Positions 5,398 through 63,429 of a stretch of 64,000 nucleotides of DNA are shown here, one piece after another. Source of the stretch: Rubrivivax sp. (GTDB lineage Bacteria > Pseudomonadota > Gammaproteobacteria > Burkholderiales > Burkholderiaceae_C); the NCBI GenBank assembly GCA_027484825.1, contig JAIXSE010000025.1, positions 186,001 through 250,000 on the forward strand. Direction: 5' to 3'. Under the pieces are notes generated by a model. The model was not told the DNA's origin and ran no database searches. It saw nothing but the letters and a program-made list of their open reading frames with translations. Each line of letters begins with the position of its first letter. Position 1 is the stretch's first letter. A program made the position numbers and the translations under genes.

Positions 5398-6390
5398 TCA
5401 TACAAGGCCTGTAGTCCCCACCGACTGCTCCGCCTGCAACGGCCCAGCAGTCAGCACCATCAGCACATCCGCATACCAGGCGCAGTTCAAGCCCAGTGAC
5501 TCGTCCAGTTCGCTGTTGCGGTTCGCCATGTCCATGCGGCTGGCATGAATGCCGAGCAGCCGCCAGCGCTGCCCGGTCGCGCCGCCATCCGCGGCAATCG
5601 CCAGCACTGGCGAGCCGCTGCAGCCCCGGTGCATGCGGGCATCCGTCAGAAAGTAGCCCGCGCCCTGGAACCGGACGCCGTAGCACGAGGCCACTGCGGC
5701 CTGACGCACCACGGGCAGGTGATGAAGGGTGTCGAAGAACCCCAGCGGGAAACCGGGGATCACCAGACGGTCCCCCACCTCCACGCCAAACGAGTCCTCT
5801 GGAAGATCCGCCGGCGTGAATGCCCGCACAAGGGCCCCGTCCGGCAGGGCCGCGGGGTCCAAGGCCAGCGCCGCCACGTCCACCGGGCCGGCGCTGTCCT
5901 GCGCCTGGATCCACTCGGCCTTGCCTTGGCGATACAGCAGCGCGGACAACACGCCGATCCGGGTCAGGTCGCGCGCATCGGTATGCAGCTCGATCTCGAT
6001 GCGGTCGGGGGCGTGACCCGTTGCGGCGTCGAAGAGGACATGACGGCTGGTGATCAGATAAAGGCGTCCGTCCCGCTCAAAGAAGAAGCCGCTGGCCGCT
6101 GTCAGGGAGATCGAGCCATTGAACGTCATCACCCGGGTGACGCCGAACAGCGCCTGGTCCTGCGCGGGCTCGCGAACCGCAGAGGCCGACTCCATCGCCC
6201 GCGGCACATCGATCTGCTGGGCGAGATGCCCCCGCGACCACGCATCGCGTCGATCGGACCAGGTTTTGGGACTCTCGCCGGTCGCATCCGGCTGATTGGC
6301 CGAATGGAGCATCGGATTCGTCAGCGCATGCTCGCCGCGCGCGGCAGCCTTTGCGCCCAGGCGCTGAAGCTCGGCATGCTCGTCGAACAT
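5398..6390 (-). CDS. Trypsin-like serine protease
   Basis: Chymotrypsin-fold peptidase of about 330 residues with a visible triad: His117 in LITSRHVLF, Asp171 in GPVDVAAL and Ser258 in HRGCSGSPVL. No signal peptide is evident, so it is probably cytosolic. It is a stand-alone protease without a PDZ domain, unlike DegP/HtrA. An N-terminal polar region of about 80 residues precedes the catalytic domain. The start is uncertain: the ATG at 6390 (MFDEHAEL) lacks a clear ribosome site, and the frame is open to a TTG at 6558. The 76-residue gene follows after 13 bp. Stand-alone trypsin-like proteins of this type are often found in conflict or effector systems; that role here is inference. Confidence 0.8.
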   Translation of the reverse strand: MFDEHAELQRLGAKAAARGEHALTNPMLHSANQPDATGESPKTWSDRRDAWSRGHLAQQIDVPRAMESASAVREPAQDQALFGVTRVMTFNGSISLTAASGFFFERDGRLYLITSRHVLFDAATGHAPDRIEIELHTDARDLTRIGVLSALLYRQGKAEWIQAQDSAGPVDVAALALDPAALPDGALVRAFTPADLPEDSFGVEVGDRLVIPGFPLGFFDTLHHLPVVRQAAVASCYGVRFQGAGYFLTDARMHRGCSGSPVLAIAADGGATGQRWRLLGIHASRMDMANRNSELDESLGLNCAWYADVLMVLTAGPLQAEQSVGTTGLV

Positions 6391-6681
6391 GGGGGATCTG
6401 GCGCGGGGCCGGGCGCCAGGGTCTGCAACGGTCAATGCCGTCGTGGCGTCTTCAGCAGGGGGTGGGGAGCGGTCGGACGTCAAGGAACACCTCGTGAAGA
6501 GGACTTGTCCCGTCAGGGGCGACGCTTCCGCCGGTGGCGCTTCAAGCAAGGGAGGCAAGGGGGCGTTCTTGGATCGAGCGTGCCCCGACAGTCTTCTAAT
6601 GTAGCGGTGTGCGGGGACAGGGTGCCGCTTTCTGAGTGGCTTTACACGCCTTGCCGCTGAACGGGGACAACAGGACGGGGG

Positions 6682-8340
6682 CTACTGGACACCGTTCACG
6701 GGCGCAGCGCTGCTGTCCGCAGGTGCCGCGGAATCGTCCTCGCCCAGGAGCGGAAGACGGATCACGAATTCACTGCCCTGGCCGATGCCTGCACTGTGGG
6801 CGGACACCGAGCCGCCGTGCAGCGCCACCAGGCTGCGCACCAGGGCCAGCCCGACACCCAGGCCGTCGGTGATCGCCCCCCCATCAACGCGCACCCGGAA
6901 GAACAGGTTGAAGACGTCGGGAAGCGCGGCTGCCGAGATGCCGCGCCCGTTGTCCTCCACCGCGATCAGCGCCTTGACGCCCTCCCGGCGCGTCGTCAGC
7001 TTGATGGCGCCTCCCGGCGGCGTGTACTTGGCGGCATTGAGGAGCAGGTTGGAGACGCATTGCGTGAGCCGGACCGGGTCGCCCCAGCAGGAAATCGCCT
7101 CCGACGAAGGGTGAAAGGCAAACTGCTGCTTGCGCTGCTCCATCATCGGCTGGGCCAGGGCGATGGCCTGATGCGCCACATGCGCCACCGGGACGCGCTC
7201 CATGCACAGCCCCACCTTGCCGGAGGCGATGATGGCGACGTCCTGCAGGTCATCCACCAGCCGGATCATGTGGCGGACTTGGCGGCGCATGCTGGCGTGC
7301 TCCACGGTGTCGTGACCGCCGCCCTGCAAGCGCAGCACGTCCAGCATGGTGAGCAGCGGAGCCAGAGGATTGCGCAGCTCGTGACCGAGCACGCTCAGGA
7401 ACTCGTCCTTGTTTTTGGCGGCGTCCCTGAGTTCAGTGAGCATTTGATCCTGCTGTTCCACCACCGCCGTCGCCGCCATCGCGGACAACACCAGCCGTTC
7501 ATTGGCATCGCGCAGGTTCACACTGCGCTCGTCCTGACGGGTGGGGGGTGCGTCCGGCGCAGGAGGCTCCTCCGGCGACAGGGGCTGCAGCGCAGAAAAG
7601 AAGCGGTGGCATCCCCCTCCGGCGCGTTTGCTGGCGTACATCGCACGATCCGCCGCGTCGATCAGGTGCTCGGCACTGCTGGCGTCGTCCGGATAGACGC
7701 TGATGCCGATGCTGGCCGACACCGGCGACGGGACGCGCCCCGCAGACGCCAGCGCCGCCAGGGACGCCTGCAGCTTGTCGGCCACGAGCCCTGCGTCCGC
7801 AACTTCTGCCACCTCGGTGAGCAGCAGCACGAATTCGTCGCCCCCCAGGCGACACACCGTGTCCTCGCCCCGCACGCCGTCCACCAGGCATTGCCCCACG
7901 GTACAGAGCACCTCGTCACCCACCAGGTGTCCGCGGCTGTCGTTGATCTCCTTGAAGCCATCCAGGTCCAGGAACAGCAGCGCGAGCCGGCCCTGGTTAC
8001 GCCGGGCGTGGGTCAGTCCCTGGGCCATGCGGTCGATCAGCAGCAGACGGTTGGGAAGCCGGGTGAGCGGGTCGAGTTCGCTGTTGCGGGTGAGCTCGGC
8101 CACCAGTTCCGCTGTGGACTCGGCGGCGCCGCGGGAGCGCATCGCGTCCAGCACCAGTTGCTCGTTGGCGGCCAGCAGCTGATGCATCTGATGACTGCCC
8201 ATCTGTGACTGGGCCTCCGCCAGGTCAGCCTGAACCTCAGCCAGTTCGGCGCGGGCTGCGGCCACCTTGCCCATGAGGACCGCCATCTCTTCCTGGAGCG
8301 CCTGGCGCCGGGTCGAATCGGGCTCTTGCTCGGGGTGCAT
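6682..8340 (-). CDS. GGDEF-histidine kinase fusion protein
   Basis: Cytosolic 552-residue fusion with no membrane segment. An N-terminal coiled coil (about 15-60) is followed by a helix with ANEQLVLDAM (58-67), then a GGDEF diguanylate cyclase domain (about 88-250) with intact GGDEF at 166-170 and an inhibitory RxxD site (RGED, 157-160). A second linker repeats the helix motif as ANERLVLSAM (279-288) and leads into a histidine kinase core: His320 in the H-box GHELRNPLAP, the N-box NLLLNAAKYTPPGG (431-444), DNGRG (463-467) and GLGVGL (493-498). Both activities look intact. There is no receiver or separate sensor domain, so the input probably comes from the KaiC-like protein encoded 27 bp upstream in the same operon. 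A cognate response regulator is not encoded nearby. Confidence 0.9.
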   Translation of the reverse strand: MHPEQEPDSTRRQALQEEMAVLMGKVAAARAELAEVQADLAEAQSQMGSHQMHQLLAANEQLVLDAMRSRGAAESTAELVAELTRNSELDPLTRLPNRLLLIDRMAQGLTHARRNQGRLALLFLDLDGFKEINDSRGHLVGDEVLCTVGQCLVDGVRGEDTVCRLGGDEFVLLLTEVAEVADAGLVADKLQASLAALASAGRVPSPVSASIGISVYPDDASSAEHLIDAADRAMYASKRAGGGCHRFFSALQPLSPEEPPAPDAPPTRQDERSVNLRDANERLVLSAMAATAVVEQQDQMLTELRDAAKNKDEFLSVLGHELRNPLAPLLTMLDVLRLQGGGHDTVEHASMRRQVRHMIRLVDDLQDVAIIASGKVGLCMERVPVAHVAHQAIALAQPMMEQRKQQFAFHPSSEAISCWGDPVRLTQCVSNLLLNAAKYTPPGGAIKLTTRREGVKALIAVEDNGRGISAAALPDVFNLFFRVRVDGGAITDGLGVGLALVRSLVALHGGSVSAHSAGIGQGSEFVIRLPLLGEDDSAAPADSSAAPVNGVQ

Positions 8341-8367
8341 GGTGGACCACCATTGTCTGGACGCTAG

Positions 8368-9831
8368 CTAGACCGTCTGGACCGGCGGCTGTCGCCCCCG
8401 GGTCGAAGGGCGACCGCCCAGCAGACCTTCCTGCAAGGGCAGCGGTTCCCCGATGCGCAGGCCGTCGGGGCCGATGGCATATTCGCGCAACTCGTCGGAA
8501 TGGGCGCTGTCGCGGACCTTGACGACGGCCATCAACCGACGCAGCCGGCTGTCCACCTCGATATAACGCTGCACGATGATGGCGTCCGTCATGAAGGCGG
8601 TGCCGTAGGGGCTGAAGCGCAGGTCGGTGTAGCGGTCTTCCAGCTCCGAGGTCATCAGCACCGTGACGCCCATGGCGGTCAGCGAGGTCACCAGGCGCAG
8701 CAGCGATTCACGGAAATCCTCGCGGAAGGACGGGCCCAGTGCGAGCTCGAAACCGGACAGCGAATCGATGACCACGCGGCTGGCCTTCAGCCGACGCACT
8801 TCGGCGCTCAGCATCTGCATGATCTCTTCGATGGAGATGTCCGGGGCGTGACTCTCCACCAGGCCGATGTGGCCCTGCGCAATGGCCTGGGCCAAGGCCG
8901 GATTGCGCAGCCGCGTGGGTCGGCGCTCGAAGGCGGCCAGCACACCGGTCTCGCCCGCCTGCACGCCGGCCTGCAAAAACGCCGCCGCCAGAATGCTCTT
9001 GCCGGACCCCGACGGTCCGGCCACCAGCAGCGAATAGCCGCGCGGCAGCCCACCGCCCATCATTTCGTCCAGGCCGGGCACGCCCATCGGGAGGCGCGGG
9101 CTGGCCGTCTCCGGGTCGGTGGCCGGGGCCGCCTTGGCGGGCACGAACACCTGCAGGCCGCTGCCGGTGATGCGGAACGCATGCAGGCCCGGCAGCGAGG
9201 GCTGGCCGCGCATCTTCATGATTTCCATCTTGCGCACCATGGCGTTGCGCTGCACGCTCTGGCGCAGCCAGATCAGGCCGTCGGCCACGGTGAAGACGGG
9301 GTTGGCGTCGGTATCGGTGAAGTATTCGCCGATCAGGAAGGTGGTGGCCTGCCAGCTGGTCATCAGCATGCCCAGCTGCTGCATGAAGCGCTGCAACTGC
9401 GCATGGCCATTGCCGTCCTCCTTGCTCGCCAGGACGACCGAGCGGAAGGAATCGACGAAGACAAAGGCAGGCTCGTGCGCGGCCACTTCATCGGTGATGC
9501 GGGCCAGCACGCCGTCCAGGTCGCCGGCCATGGCTTCGTCGCAGAGGTTGACGAAGCGAACGCTGCGGTTGATGGCGGCGGCGTCGAAGAAGGAGAACTG
9601 CTGCTGGTAGCGCAGCATCTTCAGCGGCGGCTCGCCCAGCACGGTGAAATAAAGCGCGGGGCGCTCCGGCGTGGCCAGCGAGAACATGATCTGGTGGGCC
9701 AGCGTGGTCTTGCCGCAGCCGGGCTGGCCGGCGATGAGGTTGAAGGAAAACTCCGGCAGCCCCCCGCCCAGCAAGTCGTCCAGGCCCGGCACTCCCGTGG
9801 CCAGGCTGTTGATCGTCACTTTGGTTGTCAT
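8368..9831 (-). CDS. Two-domain KaiC-like ATPase
   Basis: RecA-fold ATPase of 487 residues with two KaiC domains in tandem (about 5-235 and 245-475). Walker A motifs are GQPGCGKTT (35-43) and GPSGSGKSI (272-280); Walker B strands are FVFVDS (123-128) and RVVIDS (352-357). The catalytic glutamate pair of cyanobacterial KaiC is altered: domain 1 reads L-G-E (65-67) and domain 2 F-E-R (301-303). The ATG at 9831 (MTTKVTINSLATG) is chosen because the KaiC domain begins there and it overlaps the upstream stop as ATGA; the frame is open much further upstream only because of high GC. No KaiA or KaiB is nearby, so this is not a clock operon. KaiC-like proteins with kinases are thought to act in stress or light signalling. 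Function unproven. Confidence 0.9.
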   Translation of the reverse strand: MTTKVTINSLATGVPGLDDLLGGGLPEFSFNLIAGQPGCGKTTLAHQIMFSLATPERPALYFTVLGEPPLKMLRYQQQFSFFDAAAINRSVRFVNLCDEAMAGDLDGVLARITDEVAAHEPAFVFVDSFRSVVLASKEDGNGHAQLQRFMQQLGMLMTSWQATTFLIGEYFTDTDANPVFTVADGLIWLRQSVQRNAMVRKMEIMKMRGQPSLPGLHAFRITGSGLQVFVPAKAAPATDPETASPRLPMGVPGLDEMMGGGLPRGYSLLVAGPSGSGKSILAAAFLQAGVQAGETGVLAAFERRPTRLRNPALAQAIAQGHIGLVESHAPDISIEEIMQMLSAEVRRLKASRVVIDSLSGFELALGPSFREDFRESLLRLVTSLTAMGVTVLMTSELEDRYTDLRFSPYGTAFMTDAIIVQRYIEVDSRLRRLMAVVKVRDSAHSDELREYAIGPDGLRIGEPLPLQEGLLGGRPSTRGRQPPVQTV

Positions 9832-10259
9832 GGCTTGGGATCCTGCGCTGCAGGAGCGCTTGAAGAGGGCGACCAGACGGCTTGCAGCAGCTGTTCGGTC
9901 AACTGGGCACCGATGAGCGAGGTGAGCAGTTCTCGGAACGTCATGAAAAGCATGCCTCCCGCCTCCAGGGCTTGCGCGGGCGGCTGGGCGGCGAACAGCG
10001 CCTGGAGCTCCGGGAGGCCGCAGACGCCTTCCTCGCCGGCGACCTTGGCGGCCTCCAGCCAGACATGGCGGGAAGCGGTGCGGTGCAGCGAACGCTTGAA
10101 CAGGGCCGCGACGCCGCGTCGGCCGAACACGGGCTGCAGGGTGAGCTCGAGGTCGGTCCACATCGCGCCGATCGCGTCGGCTATCTGCCGGGAGTCGGCG
10201 CCCTTCGCCACGCGCAAGGCCAGAGGCGCCGTCAACCGGCTGCTCTCTCGGCTGTCCAT
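9828..10259 (-). CDS. Hypothetical protein, first gene of the KaiC operon
   Basis: A 143-residue protein I cannot assign to a family. It begins with a polar stretch and has the helical segments SRQIADAIGAMWTDLELTL, RRGVAALFKRSLHRTASRHVWL, and a C-terminal amphipathic helix with FMTFRELLTSLIGAQLTEQLL. The tail is rich in Pro and Ala. There is no signal peptide or convincing membrane span. Its stop overlaps the KaiC start by four bases (ATGA), indicating translational coupling and probably a roughly equal dose. By position it could be an adaptor, a sensor or a regulator for the ATPase. A divergent LysR gene starts 336 bp away. Confidence 0.8.
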   Translation of the reverse strand: MDSRESSRLTAPLALRVAKGADSRQIADAIGAMWTDLELTLQPVFGRRGVAALFKRSLHRTASRHVWLEAAKVAGEEGVCGLPELQALFAAQPPAQALEAGGMLFMTFRELLTSLIGAQLTEQLLQAVWSPSSSAPAAQDPKP

Positions 10260-61051: not shown

Positions 61052-62215
61052 ATGATGCCGCCAATGCCTGCCCTGGACGCCGCCACCCTCTTGATGGTGC
61101 TCACCATGGTCGACGGCTTTGCCTGCGTGGTGTGGCTGCTGCTGGGCGAGGTGCTGCGCATCGCTCCCCGGGCCGCCCGGCGCGTGGCCTTGCATCACGG
61201 CCTGCTGGTGCTGGCCTGGTGGCCCACTCTCCCAGCGTGGACCGAGCCGGTGCTCAGCCTGCCGCTGTCCCTGGTCTGCGCCGGCCTGCTGACGGCCGGG
61301 GTGCGCGGCCTGATGCGGCTGCAGCACGGGCTGACCGACGTGATCGCGGTCGTGGTGATGGGGCTGGTGATCCTGGCGGCGGTGTCTCCGGACCTCAGCA
61401 CGGCCCGCGCCGTGCTCAACCTGGGCTCCTGCACGCTGGCCCTCATGGCGGTGGCGGACATTCTGCGCGGCACCGGTTTCCGATTCGGCGTCACCGGACT
61501 GCTGGTGCTGCCCTATCTCGTGCTGGCCGGCGCCGGACTCTGGCGGGCCGGCGGCCTGCTGGGCTGGATACCGGCCGGCATGGGCCTGCAAGGCCTGTCG
61601 TTCAATGCTCCCCTGGCGCTGTTGCGGCTGGTGGTGAACCTGGGGGTGACGACCGGGCTGGTGGCGCTGGTGCTGCAGCGGCTGATCGCCCGGGTGCGAC
61701 ACCTCACCCGCCGGGACCCGCTCACCGGGCTGCTCAATCGCCGCGCCCTGGAGGAACAGTTGCAACGGCTGCAGGCGCAGGTCGATCGCGGCCGATCGCA
61801 TGCGCTGCTGATCCTGGACGTGGACCACTTCAAGCGCATCAACGACGAACTGGGCCATGCGGGCGGTGACGCAGCCCTGCGTCACCTGGCCCAGGTGCTG
61901 GGCGAAGCGCTGCGCACCACCGACAACTTCGGCCGACTCGGCGGCGAGGAATTTGCGGTGCTGATGCCGGACACGGACGAGCCGGGCGCGGTGCTGGTGG
62001 CCGAGCGGCTGCGTCGCCTTCTGCAGGAACGTCCGCTGACCTGGGAAGACAAGATCTGGCCGATGAGCGCCAGCATCGGCGTGGCGGCCATGCGGCCGCA
62101 GGATGCCCACGGGCATGATGCGCTGGCGCGGGCCGACGCCGCCATGTATGCGGCCAAGGCCGCCGGACGCAACCGGGTGCAGCGGGCGGCCATGGCCGTG
62201 AAGGTGCCGGCATGA
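61052..62215 (+). CDS. Membrane diguanylate cyclase (GGEEF)
   Basis: A 387-residue protein with six hydrophobic helices (about 12-210) and a C-terminal GGDEF domain (220-385) carrying an intact GGEEF (297-301) and the RxxD product-inhibition site RTTD (288-291). It is expected to make cyclic-di-GMP from GTP. The start is unclear: ATGs at 61052, 61055 and 61064 are all possible. Its stop overlaps the next cyclase gene by four bases, so the two are co-translated. Confidence 0.9.
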   Translation: MMPPMPALDAATLLMVLTMVDGFACVVWLLLGEVLRIAPRAARRVALHHGLLVLAWWPTLPAWTEPVLSLPLSLVCAGLLTAGVRGLMRLQHGLTDVIAVVVMGLVILAAVSPDLSTARAVLNLGSCTLALMAVADILRGTGFRFGVTGLLVLPYLVLAGAGLWRAGGLLGWIPAGMGLQGLSFNAPLALLRLVVNLGVTTGLVALVLQRLIARVRHLTRRDPLTGLLNRRALEEQLQRLQAQVDRGRSHALLILDVDHFKRINDELGHAGGDAALRHLAQVLGEALRTTDNFGRLGGEEFAVLMPDTDEPGAVLVAERLRRLLQERPLTWEDKIWPMSASIGVAAMRPQDAHGHDALARADAAMYAAKAAGRNRVQRAAMAVKVPA

Positions 62216-63429
62216 CGTCCAACGATCCGGTCACCATGGTCGCCGCCCTGCTGGCGGTGATGGGCGTGGCCACCGTCATCTGGCTGCTGATTGCGGCGGG
62301 CATGCGGGAATGCGCGGCGGCCTGCCTGTGCCTGGCCGGTGCCAATGCGCTGCAGGCGCTGGCCCTGGTGCTGCGATGGATCCCGGAAGCGCAGCTGCAC
62401 ACCCCGGCGCTGGTGGCCGACCTGCTGCTGCTGGGCGCCTTTGCCCTGCTGCATCTGTCCGTGCCGCTCATGGACGACCGACCGTCCCGCTGGCCGCTGC
62501 TGCTGGCCGGCCTGGCGATTGTGGCGGCACTGCTGACCCAGATGCCGCGCGGCAGCAGCCCGGTTGCTCACCATCTGGCGGTCAACGGCACCGGCGGCCT
62601 GCTGTGCTTCTTCGCCGCACGCAACACGGCCCGGCTGCTTCGGCACCGCGACCTGAAGCCGGCCCTGTGCCTGCTGTTCGGCCTGCCCTTTGTCGTGATC
62701 GGCGGCCTGCTGCTGGTCCGGCCCCTGGCGACCTTGTGGATGCCTGAGGTGCCGGCCTCGCTGGACACGCGGGGCGCCTTCAATGTCGTGTGGCTGTGGA
62801 CCGCGCTGGTCATGACGCTCACCGTCAACGGCACCCTGGCCTTCCTGCTGATGCTCAAGCTGGTGCTGCAGATCCGGCGGCTCACCCTGCGCGACCCGCT
62901 GACCGACGCCCTGAACCGCCGCGCCATGGCCGAGGCCATGGCGACTGAACATCAGCGGGTGCGGCGCGGCCACACCTATGCCCTGGTGCTGCTGGACATG
63001 GACCGCTTCAAGCAGCTCAACGACACCCTGGGCCATGCGGCCGGGGATGCCGCGCTCAAGACGCTGGTGGAGCTGCTCAAGCCCTGTCTGCGGGAAGTGG
63101 ACCTGCTGGGCCGGCTGGGCGGCGAGGAGTTCTGCGCCCTGCTGCCCTACACCGACATCGCAGGCGCGGCCCTGGTGGCCGAGCGCATGCGCCATCTGCT
63201 GGAGCGAAGCGACTTTCAGTGGAACGGGCAGTCGTGGCCGCTGAGCGCGAGCTTCGGCATCACCGAGTCGGTGGCGACGGATGCGGACCCGACCGAAGTG
63301 CTGCGCCGCGCGGACGAGGCGCTCTACCGGGCCAAGGCCCAGGGACGGAATCTGGTGCAGGCGGTGGAAGCGGCCGACCAGCGGCCACGTCCCGCGGTCT
63401 CAGGCCAGGGCGACCCGGTTGCGTCCTAG
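62212..63429 (+). CDS. Membrane diguanylate cyclase (GGEEF)
   Basis: A 405-residue protein with a similar layout: seven hydrophobic helices (about 8-218) and GGDEF at 225-390, with GGEEF (303-307) and REVD (294-297). The membrane part is different in sequence, so each protein may sense a different signal. It is coupled to the previous gene and overlaps the convergent third GGDEF gene by 30 bp. Confidence 0.92.
   Translation: MTSNDPVTMVAALLAVMGVATVIWLLIAAGMRECAAACLCLAGANALQALALVLRWIPEAQLHTPALVADLLLLGAFALLHLSVPLMDDRPSRWPLLLAGLAIVAALLTQMPRGSSPVAHHLAVNGTGGLLCFFAARNTARLLRHRDLKPALCLLFGLPFVVIGGLLLVRPLATLWMPEVPASLDTRGAFNVVWLWTALVMTLTVNGTLAFLLMLKLVLQIRRLTLRDPLTDALNRRAMAEAMATEHQRVRRGHTYALVLLDMDRFKQLNDTLGHAAGDAALKTLVELLKPCLREVDLLGRLGGEEFCALLPYTDIAGAALVAERMRHLLERSDFQWNGQSWPLSASFGITESVATDADPTEVLRRADEALYRAKAQGRNLVQAVEAADQRPRPAVSGQGDPVAS

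Follow-up and report, generated by a model that had tools for sequence, protein, structure and literature searches.

A conserved gene unit of a small helical protein, a KaiC-family ATPase and variable kinase or cyclase outputs

Distribution of the three-gene unit

On the minus strand of a 64,000-nt stretch of the Rubrivivax sp. genome (95% complete; the whole stretch is called the window below), inspection of the open reading frames (ORFs) revealed three genes which encode, in this order, U143, a small protein of 143 residues, a KaiC-like ATPase and a kinase with a GGDEF domain (Table 1). As far as our searches go, they form a real, conserved and hitherto undescribed signalling unit, whose mechanism we infer. 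A six-frame search yielded 121 distinct U143 loci after removal of seven duplicates and two false matches (L080 and L082), and an output, i.e. a kinase and/or a cyclase, was counted if its frame begins no more than 3.2 kb from the U143 stop. In 101 of these 121 loci all three components (U143, KaiC and output) lie on one strand, a recurrence that is far beyond chance, and KaiC is present in 112. The idea of a system put forward in the first-pass annotation, which had proposed to look for the gene order across Burkholderiales, is therefore not refuted, as the order is conserved well beyond one strain. Five loci end at a contig end after or within KaiC and one more at the end of U143, seven contain an output and no KaiC (L081 among them is only a U143 fragment) and one holds a U143 fragment with neither KaiC nor output. 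The output was unreported by the gene caller in five of the 101 loci (L059, L117, L125, L128 and L164), four of which have strong domain matches. An exact in-frame ATGA overlap between the U143 gene and kaiC is found in 98 of the 112 loci and a GTGA overlap in one more, and a longer overlap was seen by eye in six others (L055, L067, L111, L112, L113 and L117). The ATGA overlap suggests translational coupling of U143 and kaiC.

Counts of U143 relatives refer to the best candidates scored per genome, and the own genome is included at the level of genus, order and phylum. Relatives were detected in 2 of 16 genomes at genus level, in 47 of 399 at family level, spread over 27 of 141 genera (46 genomes without the false match in G344, which is L082), and, by profile, in 18 of 300 genomes of the order and 4 of 398 of the phylum. 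A scan of named genomes using one ten-residue pattern recovered 61 loci, with genera including Pseudomonas, Stutzerimonas, Lysobacter, Luteimonas, Rhodanobacter, Xanthomonas, Roseateles, Ramlibacter, Rhizobacter, Zoogloea, Aquabacterium and Caballeronia. The lineages carrying the operon are Burkholderiales, Pseudomonas, Lysobacteraceae and Rhodanobacteraceae, and the nearest relative of the window copy is that of Roseateles depolymerans (L032/L149, 94% KaiC identity). Only three of 72,556 plasmid records, all from Caballeronia, carry a U143 relative, and one of them has the whole operon, labelled in RefSeq as hypothetical protein, ATPase domain-containing protein and diguanylate cyclase. In Caballeronia sp. 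SBC2 (L252, L253) the operon is located on pSBC2-6, and a U143 gene on pSBC2-3 lies near an IS110 transposase, which points to mobility. Horizontal movement or frequent loss is likely in view of the patchy distribution together with the plasmid copies.

KaiC clade and clock phosphosites

The window KaiC matches PF06745 in two stretches (226 bits) with both P-loops present, as expected for the double KaiC-type ATPase that had been annotated, and it scores far below the NCBIfam cut-offs for clock KaiC (217.7 of 408 and 137.8 of 546 bits). Searching the 399 family genomes with this protein, with the three best candidates scored per genome, separated two groups of KaiC with nothing between them: 44 genes at 58-100% identity, one of which is split over contigs and spans two rows, versus 53 other rows at 35% or less. 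U143 adjoins 41 of the 44 clade genes, which is 41 of 41 if only unbroken genes with their start on the contig are considered; these include the KaiC of G364, which is cut by a contig end further along. The other three are a gene of G274 whose two parts lie on separate contigs, the first of them next to U143, a gene of G403 that runs into a contig end, and a broken-frame remnant in G320, for which U143, GGDEF and kinase are all absent from the 6.2 kb examined.

Conserved residues were counted in 111 U143-linked KaiCs (duplicates included), with positions mapped by alignment to KaiC chains. The proteins have two KaiC/RecA-type ATPase domains, and the P-loop Gly-Lys is kept throughout. Each domain has one catalytic-type Glu that never varies among the 111 proteins (E67 in CI, E302 in CII); its partner Glu has been replaced in almost every case, and the Walker B Asp is invariant or nearly so. 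At the positions which we take to be the cyanobacterial phosphosites S431 and T432, Ala is found in 108 and Phe in 107 of the 111 proteins, and the T426 position is Ser in 110. Judged from these residues, the clade keeps both ATPase sites and lacks the clock phosphosites, and since these are replaced by Ala-Phe it is not a phosphorylation clock. KaiB (PF07689) gave no match at E <=1 in the window's genome; KaiA was not searched for. The earlier statement that the operon is not the KaiABC clock is thus borne out by A412-F413 and, for kaiB, by this search, and the term circadian-type used alongside it was overstated, as the phosphosites are replaced in nearly the whole clade. A role of KaiC in a defence system was also considered and rejected, the PADLOC matches being short or weak P-loop matches.

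The window's genome encodes a second KaiC on another contig (L182:7606-10730), which has 33% identity, Thr-Tyr at the phosphosites and an overlapping gene for a histidine kinase with receiver (HK-REC; HK, histidine kinase). Nine further KaiCs without U143 (L232-L239 and L241) have, no more than 24 bases behind them, a gene of 118-131 aa that may encode a single-domain receiver, and in six of the nine a kinase gene lies just upstream of KaiC.

A helix motif ahead of the output domains

Most output domains of the operon are preceded at fixed spacing by a helix of the form L(R/L)(E/D)ANExLVLxAL, in short ANExLVL. Spacing was measured from the motif to the start of the domain model, and the motif counts include duplicate records. 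The strict pattern precedes 59 of 69 GGDEF domains of operon outputs and 83 of 89 kinase domains; the distance is exactly 26 residues in 54 of the former and exactly 22 residues in 78 of the latter. Among other proteins of the same loci it stands before 2 of 16 GGDEF and 4 of 23 kinase domains; these six cases are the convergent output of L044, a kinase of L074 that lies immediately ahead of U143, two outputs that come second in their loci (L111 and L151) and two proteins elsewhere in L044 and L103. A control set of 21 loci with U143-less KaiCs (20 out of 52 rows, selected on the basis of score and coverage, plus L182 from the window's genome) was examined with a looser pattern, and the motif was present in none of the 19 HK or GGDEF proteins near these KaiCs. 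The absence of the motif from kinases beside U143-less KaiCs implies that it tracks U143 and not KaiC in general. When the window's genome was searched with a motif-plus-HisKA query, no protein but the window kinase matched from the first residue. At 17 other places the match begins further along, and none of the four of these that were read has the motif.

The window's output protein has both a diguanylate cyclase and a kinase. Its GGDEF signature (166-170) and the RxxD five residues ahead of it (157-160), the placement of which we take to be that of an I-site, are both intact, and the kinase has an intact HELRNP H-box with H320, invariant in 23 GGDEF-HK proteins, followed by HATPase_c. Mean hydropathy does not exceed 1.7 in any 19-residue window of all three proteins, in line with soluble proteins. 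The prediction of a cytosolic kinase with an intact diguanylate cyclase, and of a KaiC-family ATPase joined to both, is hence supported by gene order, domains and the lack of any transmembrane-like stretch. In an AlphaFold2 model of this protein (predicted local distance difference test, pLDDT, 78; predicted template modelling score, pTM, 0.41) the domain arrangement is not to be trusted because of the low pTM. One predicted helix (49-87) holds motif copy 1 and enters the GGDEF domain, and another (268-338) holds copy 2 and continues into the helix with H320. L55, N59, L62, N280 and L283 are the sole invariant residues outside the catalytic domains of the 23 GGDEF-HK proteins.

Exchange of output types

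Typing of the outputs in 108 loci (duplicates included; EAL and REC inferred from tail length, with the calls confirmed by Pfam for L047, L049, L066, L072, L114, L111 and L032) gave 47 GGDEF-HK, 30 HK, 13 GGDEF, 9 HK-REC, 6 GGDEF-EAL and 3 GGDEF-HK-REC proteins. On a quick KaiC tree of 112 rows (LG+G4, Shimodaira-Hasegawa-like approximate likelihood-ratio test), which has some long branches and a very distant outgroup, at least 20 changes of output type and at least 8 changes of GGDEF presence are required; 19 and 8 remain without L043 and L173, and 15 type changes without seven doubtful rows. Many HK-only outputs have two motif copies with no domain between them. Aquabacterium terrae has two operon copies, one of which lacks the GGDEF domain, in frame between the motif copies and with the first domain residues left, which suggests that the domain was lost there. 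In R. depolymerans (L032) the kinase ends in a receiver that the window kinase does not have, a difference of about 360 bp (window 6390-6682) in otherwise collinear DNA of 81-85% identity. These sequences indicate that output domains have been exchanged often while U143 and the motif stay.

The small protein U143

Known families offer no home for U143: there is no Pfam match up to E 10, none in NCBIfam and none by sequence in the Protein Data Bank (PDB), Foldseek against PDB gave no match at E <=0.001, and PADLOC added nothing usable (PHROGs was not scanned). The commonest Pfam matches over 50 members, FCD (best E 0.006) and sorting nexin C (best E 0.022), were rejected, with four matches each, scattered and weak. 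An AlphaFold2 model built from 50 sequences is all helical (pLDDT 80, pTM 0.71) with predicted helices at 23-62, 66-73, 82-90, 94-116 and 118-129, and the invariant P43, G46, G49 and R56 all lie in the first of these, which is 40 residues long. G46, G49, R56, G117 and L120 form a core that is kept in 97-100% of 95 aligned sequences, duplicates removed; the window copy has this core and the place directly before kaiC. We therefore regard U143, as far as these searches go, as a putative undescribed family and the constant neighbour of one KaiC clade. The label unknown protein in the first-pass annotation holds with respect to family matches, and it missed that U143 is the defining partner of the adjoining KaiCs (41 of 41).

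Six open-frame U143 loci have no KaiC and are followed by a motif-bearing output (L049, L051, L057, L069, L079 and L171). Among the three best candidates per genome no U143-type KaiC elsewhere is listed for G256, G054, G398 and G281, and G364, a genome with such a locus, has one at another locus. The U143 core is kept in the five KaiC-less copies that were aligned (L079 was left out), one of which has Val at L53, and the ratio of nonsynonymous to synonymous substitution rates (dN/dS) of U143 is 0.27 for L049-L051, similar to the 0.21, 0.21, 0.25 and 0.31 of KaiC-bearing pairs.

Proposed mechanism and alternatives

We tentatively favour the reading, without giving it even chances, that KaiC and U143 constitute a cytosolic, ATP-driven hub which would act through U143 on each ANExLVL helix. 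KaiC would assemble as a double-ring hexamer with its ATP/ADP state, and not a phosphorylation cycle, as the switch, and U143, made in step with KaiC, would bind KaiC and grip the ANExLVL helices, linking the hub to the outputs. U143 is placed between KaiC and the output because it sometimes occurs without KaiC, and in the 399 family genomes no unbroken KaiC of this clade was found apart from U143. If U143 grips each of the helices, one hub would drive two outputs of the window protein in parallel, turning the helix that enters the cyclase as well as the one with the kinase histidine. The kinase would then act on an unlinked response regulator (the R. depolymerans relative has a receiver fused), and the cyclase would set the level of cyclic-di-GMP (c-di-GMP). 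KaiC may in this way supply the sensor that the kinase is missing, as the first-pass annotation had proposed. The input is probably a cytosolic metabolic cue such as the nucleotide state, perhaps also oxygen or redox, as Crp/Fnr genes lie near many copies, though not near that of the window.

A rather unlikely alternative, and the best of the competing explanations, is that the protein docking on the ANExLVL helices is KaiC, with U143 confined to regulating KaiC as a functional stand-in for KaiA or KaiB that sets the ATPase state. It would fit the presence of KaiC in 112 of 121 loci, the overlap of U143 with kaiC and not with the output gene, and the finding that in the 399 family genomes the clade KaiC is unbroken only beside U143. 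However, the six KaiC-less loci keep a motif-bearing output behind a U143 with an intact core in the five aligned, and the motif is missing from kinases beside U143-less KaiCs (0 of 19), which argues that it tracks U143. We consider it improbable that the protein is an ordinary two-component and cyclase protein in which the motif is a self-sensing coiled coil, with KaiC and U143 co-transcribed and acting elsewhere. The location of the motif in predicted helices that are continuous with the output domains, as in signalling helices, would agree with this, and contact of U143 or KaiC with the output is a prediction; but the motif tracks U143, four other kinases of the window's genome are without it, and the association has stayed through at least 15-20 changes of output type. 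A timekeeping role, hourglass or circadian, was put forward by De Luca et al. (2011) for a different kaiC-kinase pair. For the present system such a role has KaiC homology in its favour and is very improbable, given Ala and Phe at the S431 and T432 positions in nearly the whole clade, no KaiB match in the genome, and a timer-type KaiC-kinase group that looks represented by another locus, L182 (Thr-Tyr).

Several observations weigh against a hub acting through U143. Three of the 121 loci have U143 and KaiC without a recognisable output in the stretch examined (L078, L116 and L162), and three more have only a convergent output downstream (L044, L074 and L158), of which those of L158 and L074 carry no motif by pattern, the motif-bearing kinase of L074 being located upstream of U143; the output of L059 is a weak kinase fragment. 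The strict pattern is missed by 10 GGDEF and 6 kinase domains, among them the window's own copy 1 (LLAANEQLVLDAM) and the shortened L173 and L113; close variants were recognised by eye in 9 and 2 of them, and the kinase domains of L034, L073 and L118 have no motif at that place. Moreover, the motif could bind KaiC directly or be a simple coiled-coil signalling helix, and U143 has no structural match in PDB (Foldseek) that would hint at its role. Loci without KaiC are rare and perhaps arose by recent loss, and the dN/dS of L049-L051 may mostly reflect the time before KaiC was lost. No Crp/Fnr gene was found near the window copy, and the contact as well as the ATPase, kinase and cyclase activities are predictions.

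A further-reaching version, which we regard as doubtful, is that U143 founds an undescribed adaptor family by which a clock-related ATPase ring controls any ANExLVL-tagged enzyme in the right register. If this adaptor reading were true, the hub would be a plug-in device with freely exchanged cyclases, phosphodiesterases, kinases and receivers; the window protein would be driven at two tags, so that the same ATPase state would set both phosphorelay and c-di-GMP, and the motif would offer a natural modular tag by which enzymes could be coupled to a switch. Outside the cyanobacteria KaiC homologues are common, and for most of them no function is known. For one large clade a constant partner (U143), an equally constant candidate for the effector contact (the ANExLVL helix) and a near-family-wide loss of phosphosites can now be named, so that a role other than that of a clock could be tested directly with three soluble proteins.

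Relation to known systems

In the KaiABC-SasA clock of cyanobacteria, KaiC has two ATPase domains and its output runs via a histidine kinase. The window unit shares the KaiC fold, the two ATPase domains and a histidine kinase output, and is unlike the clock in having no KaiB match, replaced phosphosites, a cyclase output and U143. GGDEF and GGDEF-EAL enzymes controlled by partner proteins are another known type; the window protein resembles them in its intact GGDEF and RxxD and in the coiled coil ahead of the domain, and differs from them in its link to a KaiC-family ATPase and to a small protein that has not been described before.

Full-text searches of an open-licence library gave no description of U143, the ANExLVL motif or the three-gene unit, and 'ANEQLV' occurs in none of its papers. 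In the portion of De Luca et al. (2011; PMC3164672) available to us, KaiCs are grouped by neighbours and phosphosites, and GGDEF/EAL proteins are among the neighbours of non-phosphorylatable KaiCs, which lie near kinases. A 'second kaiC-context' described there for Ramlibacter and others, kaiC followed by a histidine kinase without kaiB, is the closest system in print, with the kaiC-kinase operon lacking kaiB common to both; the two proteins were proposed as signalling partners, and co-transcription was demonstrated by reverse transcription PCR (RT-PCR). The KaiCs of that context have phosphorylatable SY, TY or SF according to the same text, whereas the window KaiC has AF, and their kinases begin with a conserved N-terminal RtaNt domain, likened to SasA/KaiB; the window kinase begins with a predicted coiled coil and GGDEF. 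From what that source gives, L182 (Thr-Tyr, 33% identity, HK-REC, no ANExLVL) looks like the second-context type, and the window KaiC, being non-phosphorylatable, fits the heterogeneous third group; the legend of Fig. S6 has AF among the non-phosphorylatable profiles. An upstream KaiC partner is not discussed in the text accessible to us (PMC3164672), and a supplementary figure may show the small gene as 'hypothetical protein'.

In Pseudomonas putida a KaiC homologue is encoded with a kinase and a response regulator, for which a signalling role was suggested in the accessible part of Soriano et al. (2010; PMC2949598); KaiC together with a kinase is again common to the window operon, and the nine U143-less loci with a gene of 118-131 aa and no motif may be of this type. 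KaiC homologues outside cyanobacteria are covered without the three-gene unit in the available portions of PMC2949598, PMC5520375, PMC11832031 and the review PMC6627678, and effects of c-di-GMP on the cyanobacterial clock were judged indirect in the part of PMC13001216 at hand. As far as these searches go, a KaiC with a kinase partner is thus of a known kind, and what is new relative to the literature searched is U143, the motif and the interchangeability of the outputs.

Locus layout and flanking genes

The features of the window copy are compiled in Table 1. All three minus-strand ORFs described in the first-pass annotation are in place, tightly spaced with the 4-bp overlap and a gap of 27 bp between kaiC and the kinase gene, and the same ORFs were chosen by a coding-score gene caller. 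The KaiC frame is also open further upstream from a GTG; the ATG at 9831 yields the ATGA overlap.

Table 1. Features of the three-gene unit in the window of Rubrivivax sp.
Feature	Position	Strand	Basis
U143	9828..10259	-	ORF, 143 aa; all-helical model; no family match
ATGA stop/start overlap U143/kaiC	9828..9831	-	sequence, 4 bp
Double-domain KaiC-family ATPase	8368..9831	-	487 aa; PF06745 E 5.5e-67, two stretches
KaiC A412-F413, at clock phosphosite positions S431-T432	8593..8598	-	alignment to KaiC chains
Soluble GGDEF-HisKA-HATPase_c output protein	6682..8340	-	552 aa; Pfam; no hydrophobic segment
Helix motif copy 1, residues 54-66, LLAANEQLVLDAM, candidate docking site ahead of GGDEF	8143..8181	-	
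GGDEF domain, residues 89-242	7615..8076	-	PF00990 E 3.3e-44; GGDEF, RxxD intact
Helix motif copy 2, residues 275-287, LRDANERLVLSAM, candidate docking site ahead of kinase	7480..7518	-	
HisKA domain with H320, residues 311-372	7225..7410	-	PF00512 E 6.9e-10
HATPase_c domain, residues 420-531	6748..7083	-	PF02518 E 2.3e-23

Among 148 genes flanking the operon copies, Crp-type helix-turn-helix domains were the most frequent (12), followed by hemerythrin, OmpA and DUF4398 (5 each). With a background of 3-19 copies per genome in 10 genomes this is a rough comparison only, since the 148 genes are what length and coding-score limits left of 216. When coordinates were read, a Crp/Fnr gene was found no more than about 5 kb from the operon in G170, G378, G047, G211, G157 and G118. 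In G236 its distance to U143 is about 10 kb, and G000, G188 and G045 have no such gene near the operon. In L046, L105 and L106 a Crp/Fnr-type regulator follows a few bases behind the output, and the next gene of L054 starts alike. These neighbours hint at oxygen or stress control in other species and carry little weight for the window copy.

Between 6300 and 10700 of the window no sigma-70-like promoter was detected, and the single terminator-like site lies inside kaiC and is not above shuffled sequences. Downstream of the operon, in a stretch that is collinear with R. depolymerans, a protein with a trypsin-like peptidase domain (PF13365) is encoded at 5398-6390. Finally, two tandem genes for proteins of 383 and 405 aa with similar N-termini are located at 61064-63429.

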